Of a stretch of DNA of 64,000 nt, positions 14,839 through 24,193 are shown in pieces (position 1 is the first letter of the stretch; each line of letters starts with the position of its first letter). Origin of the DNA: Rhodococcus rhodnii NBRC 100604 (lineage in GTDB: Bacteria > Actinomycetota > Actinomycetes > Mycobacteriales > Mycobacteriaceae); NCBI RefSeq assembly GCF_001894925.1, contig NZ_BCXD01000003.1, positions 1 to 64,000 on the forward strand, given 5' to 3'. Made by a program: the position numbers and the translations under genes. The notes below the pieces were generated by a model. The model worked only from the letters and a program-made list of their open reading frames with translations. It did not search any database and had not been told where the DNA came from.

Positions 14839-16050
14839 ATGAACAGACCCGCTCGCCGAGACGGCACACCGGACAACACACGCAGCGGACGCGGCCACGG
14901 CGCGTCCCGAAAGGCGGCACCCGCCAAGCGGACCGCCCAGGGCAGAGGCGCTGCCCCGCACAGGGGCGCTGCCCCCGACCGGGGAACCGGCCAGGGCCGC
15001 GGCGCCGCACAGAGTGGAGGCTCCGCACAGGGCAGGGGCACCGGACAAGGCAGGGGCACCGGACAAGGCAGGGGCACCGCACAGGGGAGAGGTACCGGCC
15101 AGGGTCGCGACGCTGCTCCCGGTGCCCGCCGTGACGCCGGACGCCCCGGATCCCCCGACGCACCGCGCGGCGGAGCGTCGTCGCAGCTCAACAAGCGTGG
15201 CAAGCCCAAGGCGCCGAAGCCCACCCGTTCGGACGCCGGCGTCCCCACGATCAGCAATGCGAAGCCCGCGCGCAATCAGCACGCGGGAAAGAAGCCGCGC
15301 GGCGGCCACGAGCACGGAGACGGCGTGCGCCTGCAGAAGGTGCTCGCACAGGCCGGCGTCGCGTCGCGTCGCGCCGCAGAGAACCTCATCGAGCAGGGCC
15401 GCGTCGAGGTCGACGACCGCATCGTCACCTCGCAGGGGCTTCGGATCGACCCCGAGAACGCGGTCGTGCGGGTCGACGGCGTGCGTGTCGTCGTGCAGAA
15501 GGACCTCGTGCACATCGCACTGAACAAGCCGCGCGGCTGGCAGTCGACCATGTCCGACGACCTCGGCCGCCCGTGCGTCGGAGACATCGTCTCCGAGCGC
15601 GTCGCGGCCGGGCAGCGGCTGTTCCATGTCGGGCGGCTCGACGCCGACACCGAGGGACTGCTCCTGCTCACCAACGACGGCGACCTCGCTCACCGCCTCA
15701 TGCATCCGTCGTTCGAGGTGTCGAAGACCTACCTCGCGACGGTCTCGGGTCATCTCGCGAAGGGCGTGAGCAAGAAGCTCCGCGACGGAATCGAGCTCGA
15801 GGACGGACCCGCGAAGGTCGATGCGTTCACGTTGCTCGATGTGAACGAGGGCAAGTCGCTCGTGCGGGTGAGCCTGCACGAGGGCCGCAAGCACATCGTG
15901 CGTCGGCTCTTCGACGCCGTCGGCTACCCCGTCGTCCGGCTCGTTCGTACCGACGTCGGTGCGGTCGCGCTGGGCGATCAGCGACCCGGCACCCTCCGGG
16001 TCCTCGGCCGCGGCGAGGTCGGCGGCCTCTACAAGGCGGTGGGGCTGTGA
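14839..16050 (+). CDS. rluB: Ribosomal large-subunit pseudouridine synthase (RluB/RsuA family)
   Basis: 403 residues, much longer than the usual 240-250 because of a basic Gly/Gln/Arg-rich leader of about 155 residues containing tandem hexapeptide repeats. An S4 domain follows ([20 protein letters not shown], about 163-182), then the pseudouridine synthase domain with its catalytic Asp in [18 protein letters not shown] (about residue 268) and the KTYLATV and EGRKHIVRR motifs. It isomerises uridine in 23S rRNA; the exact site (E. coli 2605 type) is assumed from the family. It overlaps cmk by 4 bp, matching Rv1711-Rv1712. Confidence 0.92.
14989..15096 (+). repeat. 18-bp tandem coding repeats in the rluB leader
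   Basis: Six consecutive 18-bp units encode G/A-Q-G/S-x-G-T/A/S hexapeptides. Units 15043-15060 and 15061-15078 are identical (GGACAAGGCAGGGGCACC), 15025-15042 differs by two bases, and 14989-15006, 15007-15024 and 15079-15096 are more diverged. The period preserves the reading frame, so copy number can change without breaking the gene. This points to slippage or unequal exchange as the source of the long basic leader. Confidence 0.9.
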
Positions 16051-19002: not shown

Positions 19003-19740
19003 GTGGCGATTGCACTCCCGTTCCAGGACTGCCCGATCATCGAGGTACGCCGCTACACCTTGCATCCGGGCCTACGGCAGCAACTCCTCGACGTGTTCGA
19101 GCGCCACCTCATCGAACCTCAGGAAGCGGTCGGCATGACGGTCGGCGGCACCTTCACCGACGATGACGACCCGAACGTCTTCACCTGGCTGCGGGGTTTC
19201 GCCGATCACGAGTCCCGCCGAAAGTCGTTGGAAGACTTCTACCACGGGCCCATCTGGGCCGAGCACCGCGATCGAGCCAACGCGACGATGGTGAGCAGCG
19301 ACGACGTACTGCTGCTGCGCCCCACCGCGCCGCCACGCCGCCCGGCACCCGCCGTCGAGCGCGGCTCCGAAGACGATCGACCACGGAAAGAGCGTGCGCT
19401 CCTGGGGTCGTTCGGCGTGGCGTCCGATCACGACGAGAGCTGGTGGACCAGCACCGGACTCCGTGCCCTGGAGGACCGACTCGGCGTCGTGGTGTCGGCG
19501 TGGCGAACGGACCCGACACCCAACCTGTTCCCGGCGCTCCCCGTCCGTGAGGACCGCGCTGTTTCTTGGCTCGCGGTGTTCGCTGATGCCGCCGACCGGT
19601 CAGCGGCATCAGCCCGGCTGGACAGCTCCGGCTTCGTTCACGAAATCGAACGGCGTACGTCGTGGTACCGACTGTCTCGACTCACACCCACATCCCGGTC
19701 GGCCCATCCCGTCTGCGCACCGTTGTCCGCCGCCACCTAG
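19003..19740 (+). CDS. NIPSNAP-family protein
   Basis: 245 residues. The N-terminal 100 residues match the NIPSNAP ferredoxin-like fold: IIEVRRYTLHPGLRQQLLDV, then FTWLRGFADHESRRKSLEDF and YHGPIWAEHRDRANATM. A second, weaker domain of about 110 residues (SWLAVFADAADRSAASARLD) may be another half of a duplicated alpha/beta-barrel. Biochemical function of bacterial NIPSNAP proteins is unsettled. GTG in CCGTGGCG was chosen because the conserved strand starts 13 residues later; no strong ribosome site is visible, so the start is uncertain. The stop codon shares bases with the stop of the convergent small ORF. Confidence 0.8.
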   Translation: MAIALPFQDCPIIEVRRYTLHPGLRQQLLDVFERHLIEPQEAVGMTVGGTFTDDDDPNVFTWLRGFADHESRRKSLEDFYHGPIWAEHRDRANATMVSSDDVLLLRPTAPPRRPAPAVERGSEDDRPRKERALLGSFGVASDHDESWWTSTGLRALEDRLGVVVSAWRTDPTPNLFPALPVREDRAVSWLAVFADAADRSAASARLDSSGFVHEIERRTSWYRLSRLTPTSRSAHPVCAPLSAAT

Positions 19741-19865
19741 TGTCTTTGGAGTCGCTCGCGTCGTTCCGCGATGCGGGAGCCGGATTCCTTGCGGGTCATG
19801 CGGCGCAGCATGATCGGCGCGAGGATCAGGCCCGCGACCGCCCATCCGGACGAGGGCGCCGTCAC
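19737..19865 (-). CDS. Possible 42-residue membrane peptide coupled to the VOC gene
   Basis: A short frame starts at a GTG that overlaps the VOC stop (GTGA). It encodes one hydrophobic stretch (GWAVAGLILAPIMLRR) followed by a charged tail (KESGSRIAERRERLQR). Its TAG lies offset by one base from the TAG of the convergent NIPSNAP gene, sharing CTAG. The amphipathic layout resembles a genuine small membrane protein or the surviving C-terminus of a larger one. A GTGA junction by itself is weak evidence, so this is tentative. Confidence 0.4.
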   Translation of the reverse strand: MTAPSSGWAVAGLILAPIMLRRMTRKESGSRIAERRERLQRH

Positions 19866-20605
19866 TGCGTGACGACGAGCCAGCGGAAGCCGTCGGGGTC
19901 GGCGAAAGCCTGTGCTCCCGAGGCGTCCGGGAGCACGTGTCCGCCTGCCGTCGCGGCGGCCGCGAGGAGTCGCTCCGCCTCGGCGGCGGACGTTCGATGC
20001 ACGAAGGCGACATCGGAGGCCTCGCTCGAGTCGGCGACACCGACGTCCTTGGCGAGTGCAGCACCGGGCATCGAGCACAGTCGCGCCGTGCCTGGTGCCG
20101 GGACGAAGTCGATGTACTTGTTGCCGTAGTCGCGATCGGTCTGCATTCCGAGTGAGGTGTAGAACGAGCGTGATGCTGTCGGTTCGCGCACGCCCAGGAT
20201 CAGACTCGTTTCGATGGGTTTCGGTTCGGACGCCGCACGACCGTTGTCCTTTCGCTTGTCCGAGGCGAGCTTCCACACGAGGCCGTCCGGCGCGCGAAAC
20301 GTTCCGGAGAACGATCCGAACAGCGCCTTCTTCGCCGGTTTCAGGATCTCGGCTCCTCGGGCGGATGCAGCGCCCGTCACGTCCTCGACCTCCGAAGGCT
20401 GATCGAGGACGTAGGTCACGACGACACGGGGAAACCGTGACAGTGGGTGTTCTGCCGAGACGAACTCGACAGTGCCGGTGCCGTGAAGATCCACCGTGGC
20501 GCCGTTCCCGACGAGGTCGGCGCCGAGGACGTCCGCGTAGAACTGCGCCGCGGCTGCCGGGTCGGCAACGGGAACACGAAGGCCGTCGGGAGCAGGCCCG
20601 GTCAC
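19862..20605 (-). CDS. Two-domain VOC (glyoxalase/bleomycin-resistance) protein
   Basis: 247 residues with two vicinal-oxygen-chelate modules: residues 1-115 (VPVADPAAAAQFYADVLGADLV, GTFRAPDGLVWKLASD) and 130-247 (SLILGVREPTASRSFYTSLGM, AFADPDGFRWLVVTQ). Family members are metal-dependent lyases, dioxygenases or drug-binding proteins; no specific substrate can be assigned. GTG was chosen with GGAGGAG immediately upstream and overlaps the stop of the DUF1801 gene, so the two form an operon. Transcription probably starts at the AraC-box promoter upstream of the DUF1801 gene. Confidence 0.85.
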   Translation of the reverse strand: MTGPAPDGLRVPVADPAAAAQFYADVLGADLVGNGATVDLHGTGTVEFVSAEHPLSRFPRVVVTYVLDQPSEVEDVTGAASARGAEILKPAKKALFGSFSGTFRAPDGLVWKLASDKRKDNGRAASEPKPIETSLILGVREPTASRSFYTSLGMQTDRDYGNKYIDFVPAPGTARLCSMPGAALAKDVGVADSSEASDVAFVHRTSAAEAERLLAAAATAGGHVLPDASGAQAFADPDGFRWLVVTQ

Positions 20606-21057: not shown

Positions 21058-21095
21058 CCGACTGCCCCTTTCCTGCTCACCGATCCGTCCCGCTC

Positions 21096-21138
21096 ACGCT
21101 AGACGCGCGGGCACGGTGGCACTTCTCGATTCCTGACC
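21096..21138 (-). promoter_or_regulatory. AraC-type box and promoter for the DUF1801-VOC operon
   Basis: Read on the minus strand, GGTCAGGAATCGAGAAG (21138 to 21122) is followed after exactly 19 bp by CTAGCGT (21102 to 21096), whose TAGCGT fits an actinobacterial -10 hexamer. The same 17-bp box with the same 19-bp spacing to the same heptamer lies before the VOC gene at 21607. The -35 region expected 17 bp upstream of TAGCGT overlaps the end of the box, as in activation by AraC-family proteins. The same box also overlaps the promoter region of the divergent AraC gene. Confidence 0.75.
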
Positions 21139-21164
21139 CGTCGGTGGGCTGGCACAATTCGGGT

Positions 21165-21596
21165 ATGACCCGCGCACGGGACCGGACGACGATCGCTGTG
21201 ATCCGCCGCGTACGCGACCGCATCGATCGTGAGTTCGCGCAGCCCTTGAATGTCGAAGAACTCGCGCGCGGTGCGAACCTGTCGGCCGGACACCTGAGCC
21301 GCGAGTTCCGCCGCGTCTACGGCGAATCGCCGTACTCGTATCTCATGACGCGCCGCATCGAGCGGGCGATGACGCTGCTCCGGCGCGGCGATCTCGGTGT
21401 CACCGACATCTGTTTCACCGTCGGCTTCTCGTCGCTGGGAACGTTCAGCACCCGGTTCTCGGAACTGGTGGGGATGCCACCGAGCGCCTATCGCGGCGAT
21501 CCGTCGCATTCCGTGGAAGGGATCCCGCCCTGTCTGGCGCGTCAGTTCACCAGACCGGTCAGGAATCGAGAAGCACCCGGCGGCGGGTCGGCCTAG
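21165..21596 (+). CDS. AraC-family transcriptional regulator (DNA-binding domain only)
   Basis: 143 residues made almost entirely of the AraC double helix-turn-helix: first HTH NVEELARGANLSAGHLSREF (about 26-45), second GVTDICFTVGFSSLGTFSTRF (about 77-97) followed by the typical LVGMPPSAYR. There is no effector-binding domain, as in MarA/SoxS-sized regulators. A CACAAT hexamer at 21152-21157 ends 7 bases before the ATG, suggesting a leaderless transcript. Identical boxes flank the gene, at 21122-21138 and inside its 3' end at 21557-21573, so it probably controls the divergent DUF1801-VOC operon, the downstream VOC gene, and perhaps itself. Confidence 0.9.
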   Translation: MTRARDRTTIAVIRRVRDRIDREFAQPLNVEELARGANLSAGHLSREFRRVYGESPYSYLMTRRIERAMTLLRRGDLGVTDICFTVGFSSLGTFSTRFSELVGMPPSAYRGDPSHSVEGIPPCLARQFTRPVRNREAPGGGSA

Positions 21597-21599
21597 CGT
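21557..21599 (+). promoter_or_regulatory. Second AraC-type box and leaderless promoter for VOC gene
   Basis: GGTCAGGAATCGAGAAG (21557-21573) lies within the last codons of the araC-like gene. Nineteen bases later comes CTAGCGT (21593-21599), and the VOC ATG follows 7 bases after the TAGCGT hexamer, which predicts a leaderless mRNA. It is a 17/17 match, in opposite orientation, to the box before the DUF1801 operon, with the same spacing to the same heptamer. Confidence 0.75.
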
Positions 21600-21606
21600 T
21601 CACGGC

Positions 21607-22011
21607 ATGAACATCGACATCCACTACGCGTTCCTGCCCCACACCGATGCGGAGGCCGCGCTCGGCTTCTACCGCGACCTGCTCGGTTTCGAGGTCCGCC
21701 AGGACGTCGGTTACGAGGACATGCGCTGGCTCACCGTCGGCCCGGTCGGGAGTTCGACCTCGATCGTGCTGCACCCGCCGGCGGTCGATCCGGGTATCAG
21801 CGACGACGAACGCGACACGATTCTGACGCTCATCGACAAGGGCGTCTACGGCGCCGTGACCCTCGCGACCGACGACCTCGACGCGCTTTTCGCGAAGCTG
21901 GAGGCGGGTGGGGCCGACGTCGTCCAGGAGCCGACGGACCAGGACTATGGCGTACGGGACTGCGCGTTCCGCGATCCGTCGGGGAACCTGATCCGCGTCA
22001 ACCAGATCTAG
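21607..22011 (+). CDS. VOC-family protein (glyoxalase-like, single domain)
   Basis: 134 residues with the paired VOC beta-alpha-beta modules: HTDAEAALGFYRDLLGFEVR near 11-30, and DYGVRDCAFRDPSGNLIRVN at the end. The PhnB/YaeR-like ending with a conserved Asp-Pro-x-Gly-Asn turn suggests a lyase or dioxygenase-like fold; the substrate is unknown. No Shine-Dalgarno site precedes the ATG. It shares its promoter box with the divergent VOC/DUF1801 operon, so the two VOC proteins are probably made together. Its TAG shares CTAG with the stop of the convergent WYL gene. Confidence 0.88.
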   Translation: MNIDIHYAFLPHTDAEAALGFYRDLLGFEVRQDVGYEDMRWLTVGPVGSSTSIVLHPPAVDPGISDDERDTILTLIDKGVYGAVTLATDDLDALFAKLEAGGADVVQEPTDQDYGVRDCAFRDPSGNLIRVNQI

Positions 22012-22973
22012 CGCGCCGCGGCGCGCGTCATCCGTTCGCCGGCGGCGGCGCGTGCGGCACGCACCTCGCCGCCCTCGAGCACATCGAACCGGAAGCCCGC
22101 GAGCCCGAGGTACAGCGCGAACTCGTCGGGGGAATGCGAGCCGGCTTCGAGGATGCTCGAATTCTCGTCCACCTCGGTCACCGAGGCGACCGTCGCGTCG
22201 AAGGACTGCCGGACGACATCGGCGGGAGCATGGACGTGTACGCGTGCCCGAAACGGATACGGCGCCGTCGTGATGCTGTGGGTCGTGAACTGCCGCACCG
22301 CATCGTCCGGGATCTGCCGCCGAACGAAATCGGTGTCCTGCGGCACCGCGTGGCGGATGCGGTCGACACGCAGTGTCCGCCACGCGCGTCGCTCGCGATC
22401 GAACGCGACGAGATACCACCGCTGCGGCGTGTGGACGATGCGGTACGGCTCCACCACGCGCCGCACCTCGGTGCCGTCGCGGCGGGTGTAGTCGAGGCGG
22501 GTCGTGCGCCGCCCGGCGATCGCCGAGGCGATCGTGGTGACGACCGTCAGATCGACGTCGGCCGGCCTCGGGTCGAGCGGCACCATCGACTCCGCGACGT
22601 CCTCCACCTGCCGGCGCACCGCCGGCGACAGCGAGCGTTCGAGCTTCGCCAGCGCACGCGCCGCCGCGTCCTCGAGTCCCGTCACGGCGCCGGCCGCTGC
22701 TGCCCGCAGCCCGACCGCGATCGCCACCGACTCGTCCGGCGCCAGCGCGAGCGGCGGGAGATTCGCGCCTGCTCCGAGCCGATACCCGCCGTGCCGGCCT
22801 CGGACGGCCTCGATGCCGTAACCGAGTTCGCGCAGGTCGTCGATGTCCCGCCGCAGTGTCCGCTCGCTGACCTCCAGGCGCTCACGCAACTCGGCGCCGC
22901 TCCACTCCCGTCGTGCCTGCAGTAGCGAGAGCAGTGCGAGGGTGCGACCCGTCGTTCGCGTCATGACATCCAT
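22008..22973 (-). CDS. WYL-domain HTH transcriptional regulator (YafY/DeoR type)
   Basis: 321 residues. The N-terminal winged helix (TLALLSLLQARREWSGAELR, then VSERTLRRDIDDLRELGY, about 11-52) is followed by a WYL domain with VEPYRIVHTPQRWYLVAFDR near 170-190 and a C-terminal WCX extension. WYL proteins bind nucleic acid or nucleotide ligands and often regulate stress or defence genes, but this one is most likely a local regulator; it is divergent from the epoxide hydrolase with 53 bp between them. Two starts are possible (MDVMTR at 22973, or MTR three codons later). Confidence 0.88.
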   Translation of the reverse strand: MDVMTRTTGRTLALLSLLQARREWSGAELRERLEVSERTLRRDIDDLRELGYGIEAVRGRHGGYRLGAGANLPPLALAPDESVAIAVGLRAAAAGAVTGLEDAAARALAKLERSLSPAVRRQVEDVAESMVPLDPRPADVDLTVVTTIASAIAGRRTTRLDYTRRDGTEVRRVVEPYRIVHTPQRWYLVAFDRERRAWRTLRVDRIRHAVPQDTDFVRRQIPDDAVRQFTTHSITTAPYPFRARVHVHAPADVVRQSFDATVASVTEVDENSSILEAGSHSPDEFALYLGLAGFRFDVLEGGEVRAARAAAGERMTRAAAR

Positions 22974-23026
22974 GATGGCCCGGAATCAGGCCGTATTGCG
23001 GCCGGAACGGCTGCGACGATCGGGTC

Positions 23027-24193
23027 GTGACCGACGCCGAGCAGTACCCCGACGTCCATCCCTTCCGTATCGAGATCGCCGACGCCGCGCTGGACGACCT
23101 GCGGAGTCGGCTGCGCGACACTCGACTCCCGCCTCCGCTACCGGGTGACGACTGGGACACCGGTGTCCCCGTCGCGGTGCTCGCCGACCTCGTCGACCGC
23201 TGGTTGCGTCACGACTGGCGCGCGACCGAGCGGCGACTGAACGCGCTGCCCCAGCTCACGACCCGTATCGACGGCCAGACCGTCCACGCCGTCCACATCC
23301 GATCGCCGCACCCGAACGCGACGCCGATCCTGCTGCTGCACGGCTGGCCGGGGTCGTTCCTCGAGTTCGAGGGTCTCATCGGTCCACTCACCGATCCTGT
23401 CGCCCACGGCGGCCACGCCGACGATGCGTTCCACGTGGTGATCCCGTCGCACCCCGGATTCGGGTTCTCGACACCGCTCGACGGTCCGGGGTGGACGGTG
23501 GAACGTACCGCGTCGGCCTACGCCGAACTCATGACCCGGCTCGGCTACGACAACTTCGCCGTCCACGGTGGCGATCACGGTGCGGCGATCGCACCCGAGA
23601 TCGCGCGGGCCGTGCCTGATCGCGTGATCGGTGTGCACGTGAACGGTTCGCTCTCGTTCGCCACGGAGGTCGACGACGACACCGCCGCGCGGCTGACGCC
23701 GATCGAACGAGATCGGCTGCGGCGCATCGCCGAATTCATGGAGCGCGAGTCCGGATACATCGCGATCCAGAGCACCCGCCCCGGCCTGATCGGTGTGATG
23801 ACCGCCGACAGCCCGGTGGCCCAGCTGGCATGGATCCACGACAAGCTGCAGGCGTGGACGTATCCGCAGTCCACGCCGGCCCTCGACGTGCTGGGGGAGC
23901 AGTTCGTGTTCGACAACGCGTCGCTGTACTGGCTCACCGCGAGCGGCGGGTCCTCGGCGCAGGTCACCTATGCGATGACCGCGGCATGGGGCGCGGCGAA
24001 ACAGGACTCGGGCGTCCCGACCGCCGTGATCGTCTTCGCACACGACGTCGGCCTGCGGTTCGCGGACGAGAAGGAGCACACCATCGTGCGCTGGACCGAC
24101 GTCGACGATCGGGGCGGGCACTTCGCGGCCATGGAGGAACCCGTGACGCTCGTCGACGACATCAGAGCCTTCTACGCCTCACTGCGGTCGTGA
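23027..24193 (+). CDS. Epoxide hydrolase (EHN family, alpha/beta hydrolase)
   Basis: 388 residues. The N-terminal EHN domain (FRIEIADAALDDLRSRLRDT, residues 12-31) is followed by an alpha/beta-hydrolase core. The oxyanion motif is HGWPGS (about 105-110), the nucleophile Asp is in VHGGDHGAAIAPE (about residue 183) and the catalytic His is in RGGHFAAME (about 366). The family opens epoxides by attack on an ester intermediate; juvenile-hormone-type or xenobiotic epoxides are typical substrates, and the physiological one is unknown. GTG start. It is divergent from the WYL regulator, a candidate controller. Confidence 0.9.
   Translation: MTDAEQYPDVHPFRIEIADAALDDLRSRLRDTRLPPPLPGDDWDTGVPVAVLADLVDRWLRHDWRATERRLNALPQLTTRIDGQTVHAVHIRSPHPNATPILLLHGWPGSFLEFEGLIGPLTDPVAHGGHADDAFHVVIPSHPGFGFSTPLDGPGWTVERTASAYAELMTRLGYDNFAVHGGDHGAAIAPEIARAVPDRVIGVHVNGSLSFATEVDDDTAARLTPIERDRLRRIAEFMERESGYIAIQSTRPGLIGVMTADSPVAQLAWIHDKLQAWTYPQSTPALDVLGEQFVFDNASLYWLTASGGSSAQVTYAMTAAWGAAKQDSGVPTAVIVFAHDVGLRFADEKEHTIVRWTDVDDRGGHFAAMEEPVTLVDDIRAFYASLRS

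Follow-up and report, generated by a model that had tools for sequence, protein, structure and literature searches.

The described systems closest to the locus studied here are those of MarA and SoxS, which carry an AraC/XylS-family domain with two helix-turn-helix (HTH) motifs and are devoid of a ligand domain, as is the AraC-type protein that we describe. The marbox that these regulators recognize resembles our box in being an asymmetric site of about 20 bp whose GCA-like and A-rich halves lie about 12 bp apart, and the marbox regulons of MarA, SoxS and Rob (RamA) are likewise small and scattered, with a class II placement of the site, which is the placement predicted here. However, in the present system the putative operator lies in the regulator's last codons, the VOC targets are predicted to be read from leaderless messages, and the targets are of the VOC, DUF1801-like and UvrA-like types, found here mainly in actinobacteria. 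AdpA and other actinomycete AraC regulators share the DNA-binding fold of our protein (3w6v, Foldseek E 6.7e-05), but AdpA differs by a large N-terminal domain, which our protein lacks, and by its target set. Ordinary regulator-target pairs also have the activator next to its target and the operator before the target, but there the operator sits in the gap, whereas here it would be part of the activator's own coding sequence. This position of the operator and the breadth of the regulon are what stand out. No description of such a system, and nothing on the motif strings or on DUF1801 together with AraC, was found in the literature searched, which covered few subscription papers and no preprints; an earlier description is possible.

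The reading that we prefer, and consider highly probable, is that the locus encodes a MarA-like AraC activator made of the DNA-binding domain only, with its operator embedded in its own last codons; the comparisons below argue that the module is real, strongly conserved and regulatory. The window, that is, the whole stretch of 64,000 nucleotides of Rhodococcus rhodnii that was analysed, would be a compact copy of a widespread regulon. AraC, a near-bare DNA-binding domain of the MarA/SoxS type, would bind an asymmetric box of 18 bp, placing one HTH at the (T/G)CA half and the second at the AGAAG half. The box would lie where class II activators bind, at about -50 to -33 with the centre near -42 (counted from the VOC ATG as +1), and from there AraC would contact the polymerase, make up for the missing -35 and recruit RNA polymerase to the TAGCGT -10. 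The box in the last araC codons would drive the next gene, with the VOC protein made from a leaderless mRNA, and the inverted copy would drive the divergent DUF1801-VOC operon; elsewhere the box would serve further genes for VOC proteins, DUF1801-like proteins, UvrA-like ABC ATPases, an F420H2-dependent quinone reductase and small proteins.

The 17-mer GGTCAGGAATCGAGAAG is present twice in inverted orientation (21122-21138, minus strand, and 21557-21573, plus strand), before the DUF1801-VOC operon and before the downstream VOC gene. Both copies are perfect 17/17 matches, and CTAGCGT follows exactly 19 nt past each of them (21102-21096, minus strand, and 21593-21599, plus strand), so that the original prediction, made from the letters of the window, was right on both points. 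It had also placed between the two boxes a gene for an AraC-type protein reduced to its DNA-binding domain, with which the ORF, the Pfam matches and the structural model agree (Table 1); the araC ATG was picked inside a longer ORF. The VOC ATG is located 13 nt from the first T of its -10 TAGCGT and the VOC mRNA of the window is predicted to be leaderless. This 134-aa protein has matches at E 1e-4 in 227 fetched loci, including 75 of the 80 named relatives discussed below. On the divergent side, the GTG start of the two-domain VOC gene overlaps the DUF1801 stop (GTGA), and translational coupling of the two genes is therefore probable. A DUF1801 protein has been assigned in the literature to the YdhG-like fold, close to frataxin (PMC10855754). 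A possible small membrane peptide (19737-19865, minus strand), which had been counted among the regulon members, is not supported: none of the fetched loci matched it at E 1e-4, a test that is weak for a peptide of 42 residues.

Table 1. Features of the araC locus in the window.
Feature	Position	Strand	Basis
Two-domain VOC protein, 247 aa, GTG start	19862..20605	-	PF00903, E 3e-14
DUF1801-like protein, 151 aa	20602..21057	-	24.4 bits, under the Pfam cut-off of 27.2
AGGAAAGGGG, similar to a Shine-Dalgarno sequence, ahead of the DUF1801 gene; transcript predicted to be leadered	21065..21074	-	Read from the sequence
-10 TAGCGT of the divergent operon	21096..21101	-	Spacing equal to that of the other copy
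Second putative operator box GGTCAGGAATCGAGAAGT, intergenic, for the divergent operon	21121..21138	-	Match; divergent boxes in L011 and L013
Conserved TGGCACAAT shortly before the araC start	21150..21158	+	Pattern in 50/79 upstream regions
araC, AraC-type regulator, 143 aa, two HTH motifs	21165..21596	+	ORF, Pfam, AlphaFold2, Foldseek
Putative operator box GGTCAGGAATCGAGAAGC in the last araC codons (V-R-N-R-E-A)	21557..21574	+	80/80 named relatives; rare codons
-10 TAGCGT of the VOC promoter, 20 nt past the 17-mer	21594..21599	+	Sequence, spacing
VOC-superfamily protein (Glyoxalase), 134 aa, main target	21607..22011	+	PF00903, E 4.1e-18

A bare 17-mer repeat is weak evidence and unremarkable alone, since the window holds 57 repeated 17-mers, which merge into 31 groups. 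The box pair is taken as real because of the -10 spacing common to both copies and because of its conservation, and it is sequence conservation that is decisive for the box. Within the window the two copies are the sole matches to GGTCAGGAATCGAGAAG at up to three mismatches (0.21 expected; 2 of 100 shuffles reached two). They are also the only repeat with the same 7-mer 19 nt downstream, apart from a short tandem repeat with an 18-bp step at 15031-15072. Across the 4.46-Mb genome, too, no other place comes closer to the 17-mer than three mismatches; 13 further places match with three, and the reversed control gave three matches at up to three mismatches over the whole genome. None of the six three-mismatch places scored (those of the 13 for which a locus was returned) has a TANNNT at 18-23 nt.

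The original prediction was to be given up if relatives did not keep the box together with the AraC gene, and this comparison bears it out. The box (up to three mismatches in 18) is found at the same 3′ codons of araC in 80 of 80 relatives; the AraC protein, and not the box, served to find these loci, which are the best 80 of 557 confirmed AraC relatives in named genomes, a sample that leans towards close ones. TANNNT follows in 76 of the 80, at 20-21 nt past the 17-mer in 75 and at 18 nt in one, TAGCGT being the commonest -10 (48). Among the box-bearing relatives are Actinomycetota, Nannocystis, Variovorax and MAGs of Chloroflexota, although contigs of foreign origin may occur in MAG bins. 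The 5 plasmid records examined out of 22 yield two further cases in Deinococcus and one in Cupriavidus, in which the box has one or two mismatches and keeps its spacing. A search of the genus by DNA (28 genomes, 15-mer, at most one mismatch) gave 70 matches vs 2 for the reversed control; among 30 of these loci that we looked at, the -10 was in place in 20 and no TANNNT was there in the other 10.

The 3′ box could in principle be kept only through the conserved peptide VRNREA, as R133, N134 and E136 are invariant in an alignment of 42 AraC sequences. However, the codons that spell the box are rare ones, kept in 71-79 of the 80 genes. The Arg codon is AGG in 79 of 80 (vs 23 of the other 1493 Arg codons in these genes), the Asn codon AAT in 76 of 80 (3 of 61 elsewhere), the following codon CGA in 71 of 80 (75 of 1493 elsewhere; the other nine are CAA, for Gln) and the Glu codon GAA in 79 of 80 (98 of 629 elsewhere). 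Because these codons are rare elsewhere in the genes, we conclude from the codon counts that selection acts on the box DNA and not merely on the peptide. Furthermore, 76 copies located outside araC tails, among the matches listed in the survey described below, have the same letters, which the search pattern fixes, and the same spacing; the AraC tail is of low model confidence; and one relative (L222) still encodes RPVRNREA through GC-rich synonymous codons, its tail box having been lost. The explanation by the peptide is thus already contradicted, and we attach practically no probability to it. The invariance of R133, N134 and E136 is probably a by-product of the box DNA, and the operator seems to have shaped the C-terminal residues of AraC.

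A further box with its -10 is found upstream of araC, on the same strand, in 10 of 168 main-clade genes (counted after removal of 18 duplicates and of 6 genes whose upstream sequence was too short). Three of these ten loci (L189, L222 and L225) have lost the tail box, vs 2 of the 158 others (Fisher 0.0014). Relaxation of the tail box where an upstream box exists is only a tendency, because the other seven loci keep it (L027, L039, L047, L063, L178, L190 and L334); this natural control, a secondary one, leans towards constraint on the DNA.

The layout of the window, with a box before the divergent DUF1801 gene and the araC gene leading through its tail box to VOC, is seen again in Actinoalloteichus (L011) and Arthrobacter (L013). 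There, divergent boxes with 1 and 2 mismatches precede homologous DUF1801 genes, and the DUF1801-like protein of the window is 62.5% (L011) and 59% (L013) identical to the box-preceded proteins. On the two Deinococcus plasmids the order is araC with its box, VOC and DUF1801, the genes behind VOC being annotated as DUF1801. The two-domain VOC protein has its best match (47%) directly downstream of a box (L158). VOC and DUF1801 genes also stand together in L240, L241 and L245, the VOC proteins being only about 30% identical. The recurrence of these layouts supports the interpretation first proposed, but its description as a mini-regulon of one locus proved too narrow.

Indeed, in a survey of the order (150 genomes with a completeness of 90% or more), the box with its -10 was found in 97 genomes and the reversed pattern in none, which rules out chance or a repeat element. 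Despite this wide system, only two close copies were found in the R. rhodnii genome. With an orthologue threshold (E 1e-48) set after the table was seen, AraC is present in 94 of the 97 box-pattern genomes vs 2 of the 53 others, and box pattern and orthologue agree in 145 of 150 genomes. The two AraC genomes outside the pattern have a variant box (G089) and an exact box with a TGGCGT -10 (G115). The association is partly circular, as the box lies in araC. Boxes outside the tails allow a cleaner test, in which the orthologue is present in 47 of 49 genomes vs 49 of 101 others (Fisher 1e-9).

Three genomes (G067, G102 and G122) have the box pattern and no AraC match at E 1e-48 or better, as would be expected if another regulator or an alternative sigma factor read the box and AraC were a mere passenger. 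Against this stand the location of the box within araC, the agreement in the other genomes counted above, and the correspondingly altered boxes of paralogous AraC clades. Moreover, a sigma-type -35 does not usually take the form of an 18-bp element that stops 20-21 nt ahead of a TANNNT -10. We regard a reader other than AraC as very improbable, and infer that AraC itself binds the box.

To describe the regulon, we read 148 sites in 81 of the 97 genomes, among the matches listed, the two of the window being left out. The -10 lies at 20 or 21 nt in all 148 of these listed sites, the pattern having allowed 19-22. The araC tail holds 72 of them and 76 are elsewhere, 70 of the latter having no AraC in the fetched stretch. 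Downstream ORFs were called for 146 of the listed sites and then clustered. The VOC cluster accounts for 99 of these 146 targets (69 after araC tails, 30 elsewhere), followed by DUF1801-like proteins (27, the second largest cluster), UvrA-like ABC ATPases (8), small membrane-type proteins (6), DUF1059-like proteins (2), one F420H2-dependent quinone reductase and three others, two of them judged spurious; each family was named from a single member of its cluster, and the matches to DUF1801, DUF1059 and the UvrA DNA-binding domain score below the Pfam cut-offs. Genes for UvrA-like ABC ATPases were seen behind the box in L097, L103, L108, L154, L209, L223, L229, L238 and L244, and targets of this type raise a possible link to DNA-binding drugs or DNA damage. 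The target set, read from these families, suggests that the regulon protects from small molecules that are reactive or toxic; VOC, UvrA-like and F420H2_quin_red are compatible with control of drug or oxidative stress genes, nothing more. Families of unknown role (DUF1801, DUF1059, many VOC proteins, the UvrA-like ABC ATPase) gain a regulon membership, which points to a shared stress function in actinobacteria.

In an alignment of the 50 non-tail sites with a 21-nt spacer, where the letters of the search pattern are fixed by construction, preference is also seen for a G two bases before the box, for CCG before that, for C past the box and for GCG within the -10, and no -35 consensus was seen in the spacer. 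The position of the box and the missing -35 are consistent with monomeric class II activation at sigma-A-type promoters. Of 62 scorable VOC targets, 53 have their ATG at a distance of exactly 13 nt from the -10 (counted from its first T), and the box-driven VOC messages are therefore probably leaderless.

The araC gene has a start element of its own. TGG[CG]A..AT followed by RTG after 5-9 nt occurs in 50 of 79 araC upstream regions, vs a mean of 0.065 in 200 shuffles; the element is TGGCACRAT-like, 5-7 nt before ATG or GTG, and in the window extends with the start over 21150-21167. TGGCACAAT is a probable extended -10 of araC, and the araC mRNA is probably leaderless. Because this element differs from that of the targets, araC is probably transcribed at a basal level, independently of the box. 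A sigma-54 assignment for the TGGCAC element was dropped, the spacing being off by one; to our knowledge rpoN is absent from actinobacteria. Autoactivation of araC through its own box was ruled out, since 76 of 78 relatives examined have no box (up to four mismatches) within 500 nt upstream of the gene.

The divergent box (21122-21138) covers, by arithmetic, the place where a -35 for the TGGCACAAT of araC would lie, and autorepression through it could be added in the window. This favors a different role for the same operator, in which AraC represses, or both represses and activates, and blocks its own promoter via the divergent box. However, the spacer of the target promoters is without a -35 consensus, and both the centre of the box (near -42) and its constant distance of 20-21 nt to the -10 are those of class II activators. 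The relatives without an upstream box further indicate that autorepression is not general. Repression thus appears unlikely, and activation by AraC is the role that we infer.

AraC belongs to the AraC/XylS family by its matches to PF12833 (83.6 bits, cut-off 33.6; E 1.2e-23) and PF00165 (57.8 bits, cut-off 26.6; E 1.1e-15). The AlphaFold2 model has a mean pLDDT of 80.6, with residues 116-143 below 50. Its confident part is the helical DNA-binding part only, the ligand-binding/dimerisation domain being absent from the 143 aa, and the tail from residue 116 is probably disordered. Foldseek matched the model to the AraT C-terminal domain, AdpA, SoxS and MarA, and 1bl0, 7w5w, 1xs9 and 7vwz are among the matches that bear on the comparison with MarA, SoxS and Rob (RamA). 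The scores remain far below the NCBIfam equivalog cut-offs for RamA (59.7 bits for a cut-off of 180), SoxS (47.8 for 174), Rob (44.1 for 426 and 43.9 for 380) and MarA (28.9 for 250 and 29.9 for 202). Only two other AraC genes, 36-37% identical, were found in the R. rhodnii genome with AraC as query (E 1e-8). Cys83 and Cys123 are invariant in the 42 AraC sequences. Cys123 is also kept in many AraC paralogues with other boxes, so the box does not explain it; that the two residues form a redox sensor stays a guess, because Cys123 sits in the low-confidence tail. A subset of the AraC proteins (L027, L039, L047, L063 and L230) starts with MCHPSWG- or MCNPLWG-, a Cys-containing N-terminal extension, absent from the window AraC, that could be a metal or redox sensor.

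Twenty further AraC genes were read, 17 of which are 45-59% identical to the window AraC. A variant box is found at or just behind the 3′ end in 16 of these 17 paralogues, L274 having none, and the variant GCAGTTTYGGAGAAG with its -10 occurs in 18 of the 150 genomes, with no reversed matches. With 21 duplicates removed, 210 fetched AraC genes remain; 195 of them have a box NN(T/G)CA-N7-AGAAG near the 3′ end, which in 193 falls in the coding sequence. The search form took only T or G at the variable position, and other letters, such as the GCG of L269, count as boxless in what follows. All 169 boxed proteins whose first recognition helix reads GHL have a TCA box (6 are without a box), and all 25 with AHF have a GCA box (2 without); of the two with GHF, one has a TCA box and one none, and six proteins with none of these helices were left unscored. 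A recognisable box was absent from the AraC relatives L274, L289 and L304, and L269 has the GCG form only. In MarA, the equivalent helix residues touch the GCAC half of the marbox.

The contrast between the two helix-box pairings follows clades and supports, without proof, the view that AraC reads the box. Since GHL/TCA and AHF/GCA follow the protein clades, their covariation may stem from few evolutionary events. Own variant boxes, for example GAGCAGTTTCGGAGAAGC, are seen in the AraC clades L264-L273, L281, L283 and L312-L329, several of them followed by VOC-like genes, and these clades are probably parallel systems of different specificity.

On balance we favor, with moderate confidence, a wider reading whose parts are taken jointly: a whole clan of small AraC proteins would carry its operator in or just behind the last codons, the regulator gene with its operator and its first target would form a self-contained cassette that crosses phyla (Actinomycetota, Chloroflexota, Deinococcota, Myxococcota and Pseudomonadota), helix and operator would codiverge clade by clade, and each clade would seed a scattered regulon, the present one being an undescribed regulon for defence from reactive small molecules. 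If true, this would be a natural library of matched regulator-operator pairs exposing the DNA recognition code of AraC-type proteins. As the operator can be read from the regulator gene, the fetched loci would provide 195 AraC-operator pairs free of experiment, and the recognition code of the AraC family would become directly testable.

Adjoining the locus, at 22008-24193, a gene for a WYL-domain regulator (minus strand) is divergent from one for an alpha/beta hydrolase of the epoxide-hydrolase type (plus strand), a separate regulator-enzyme pair.
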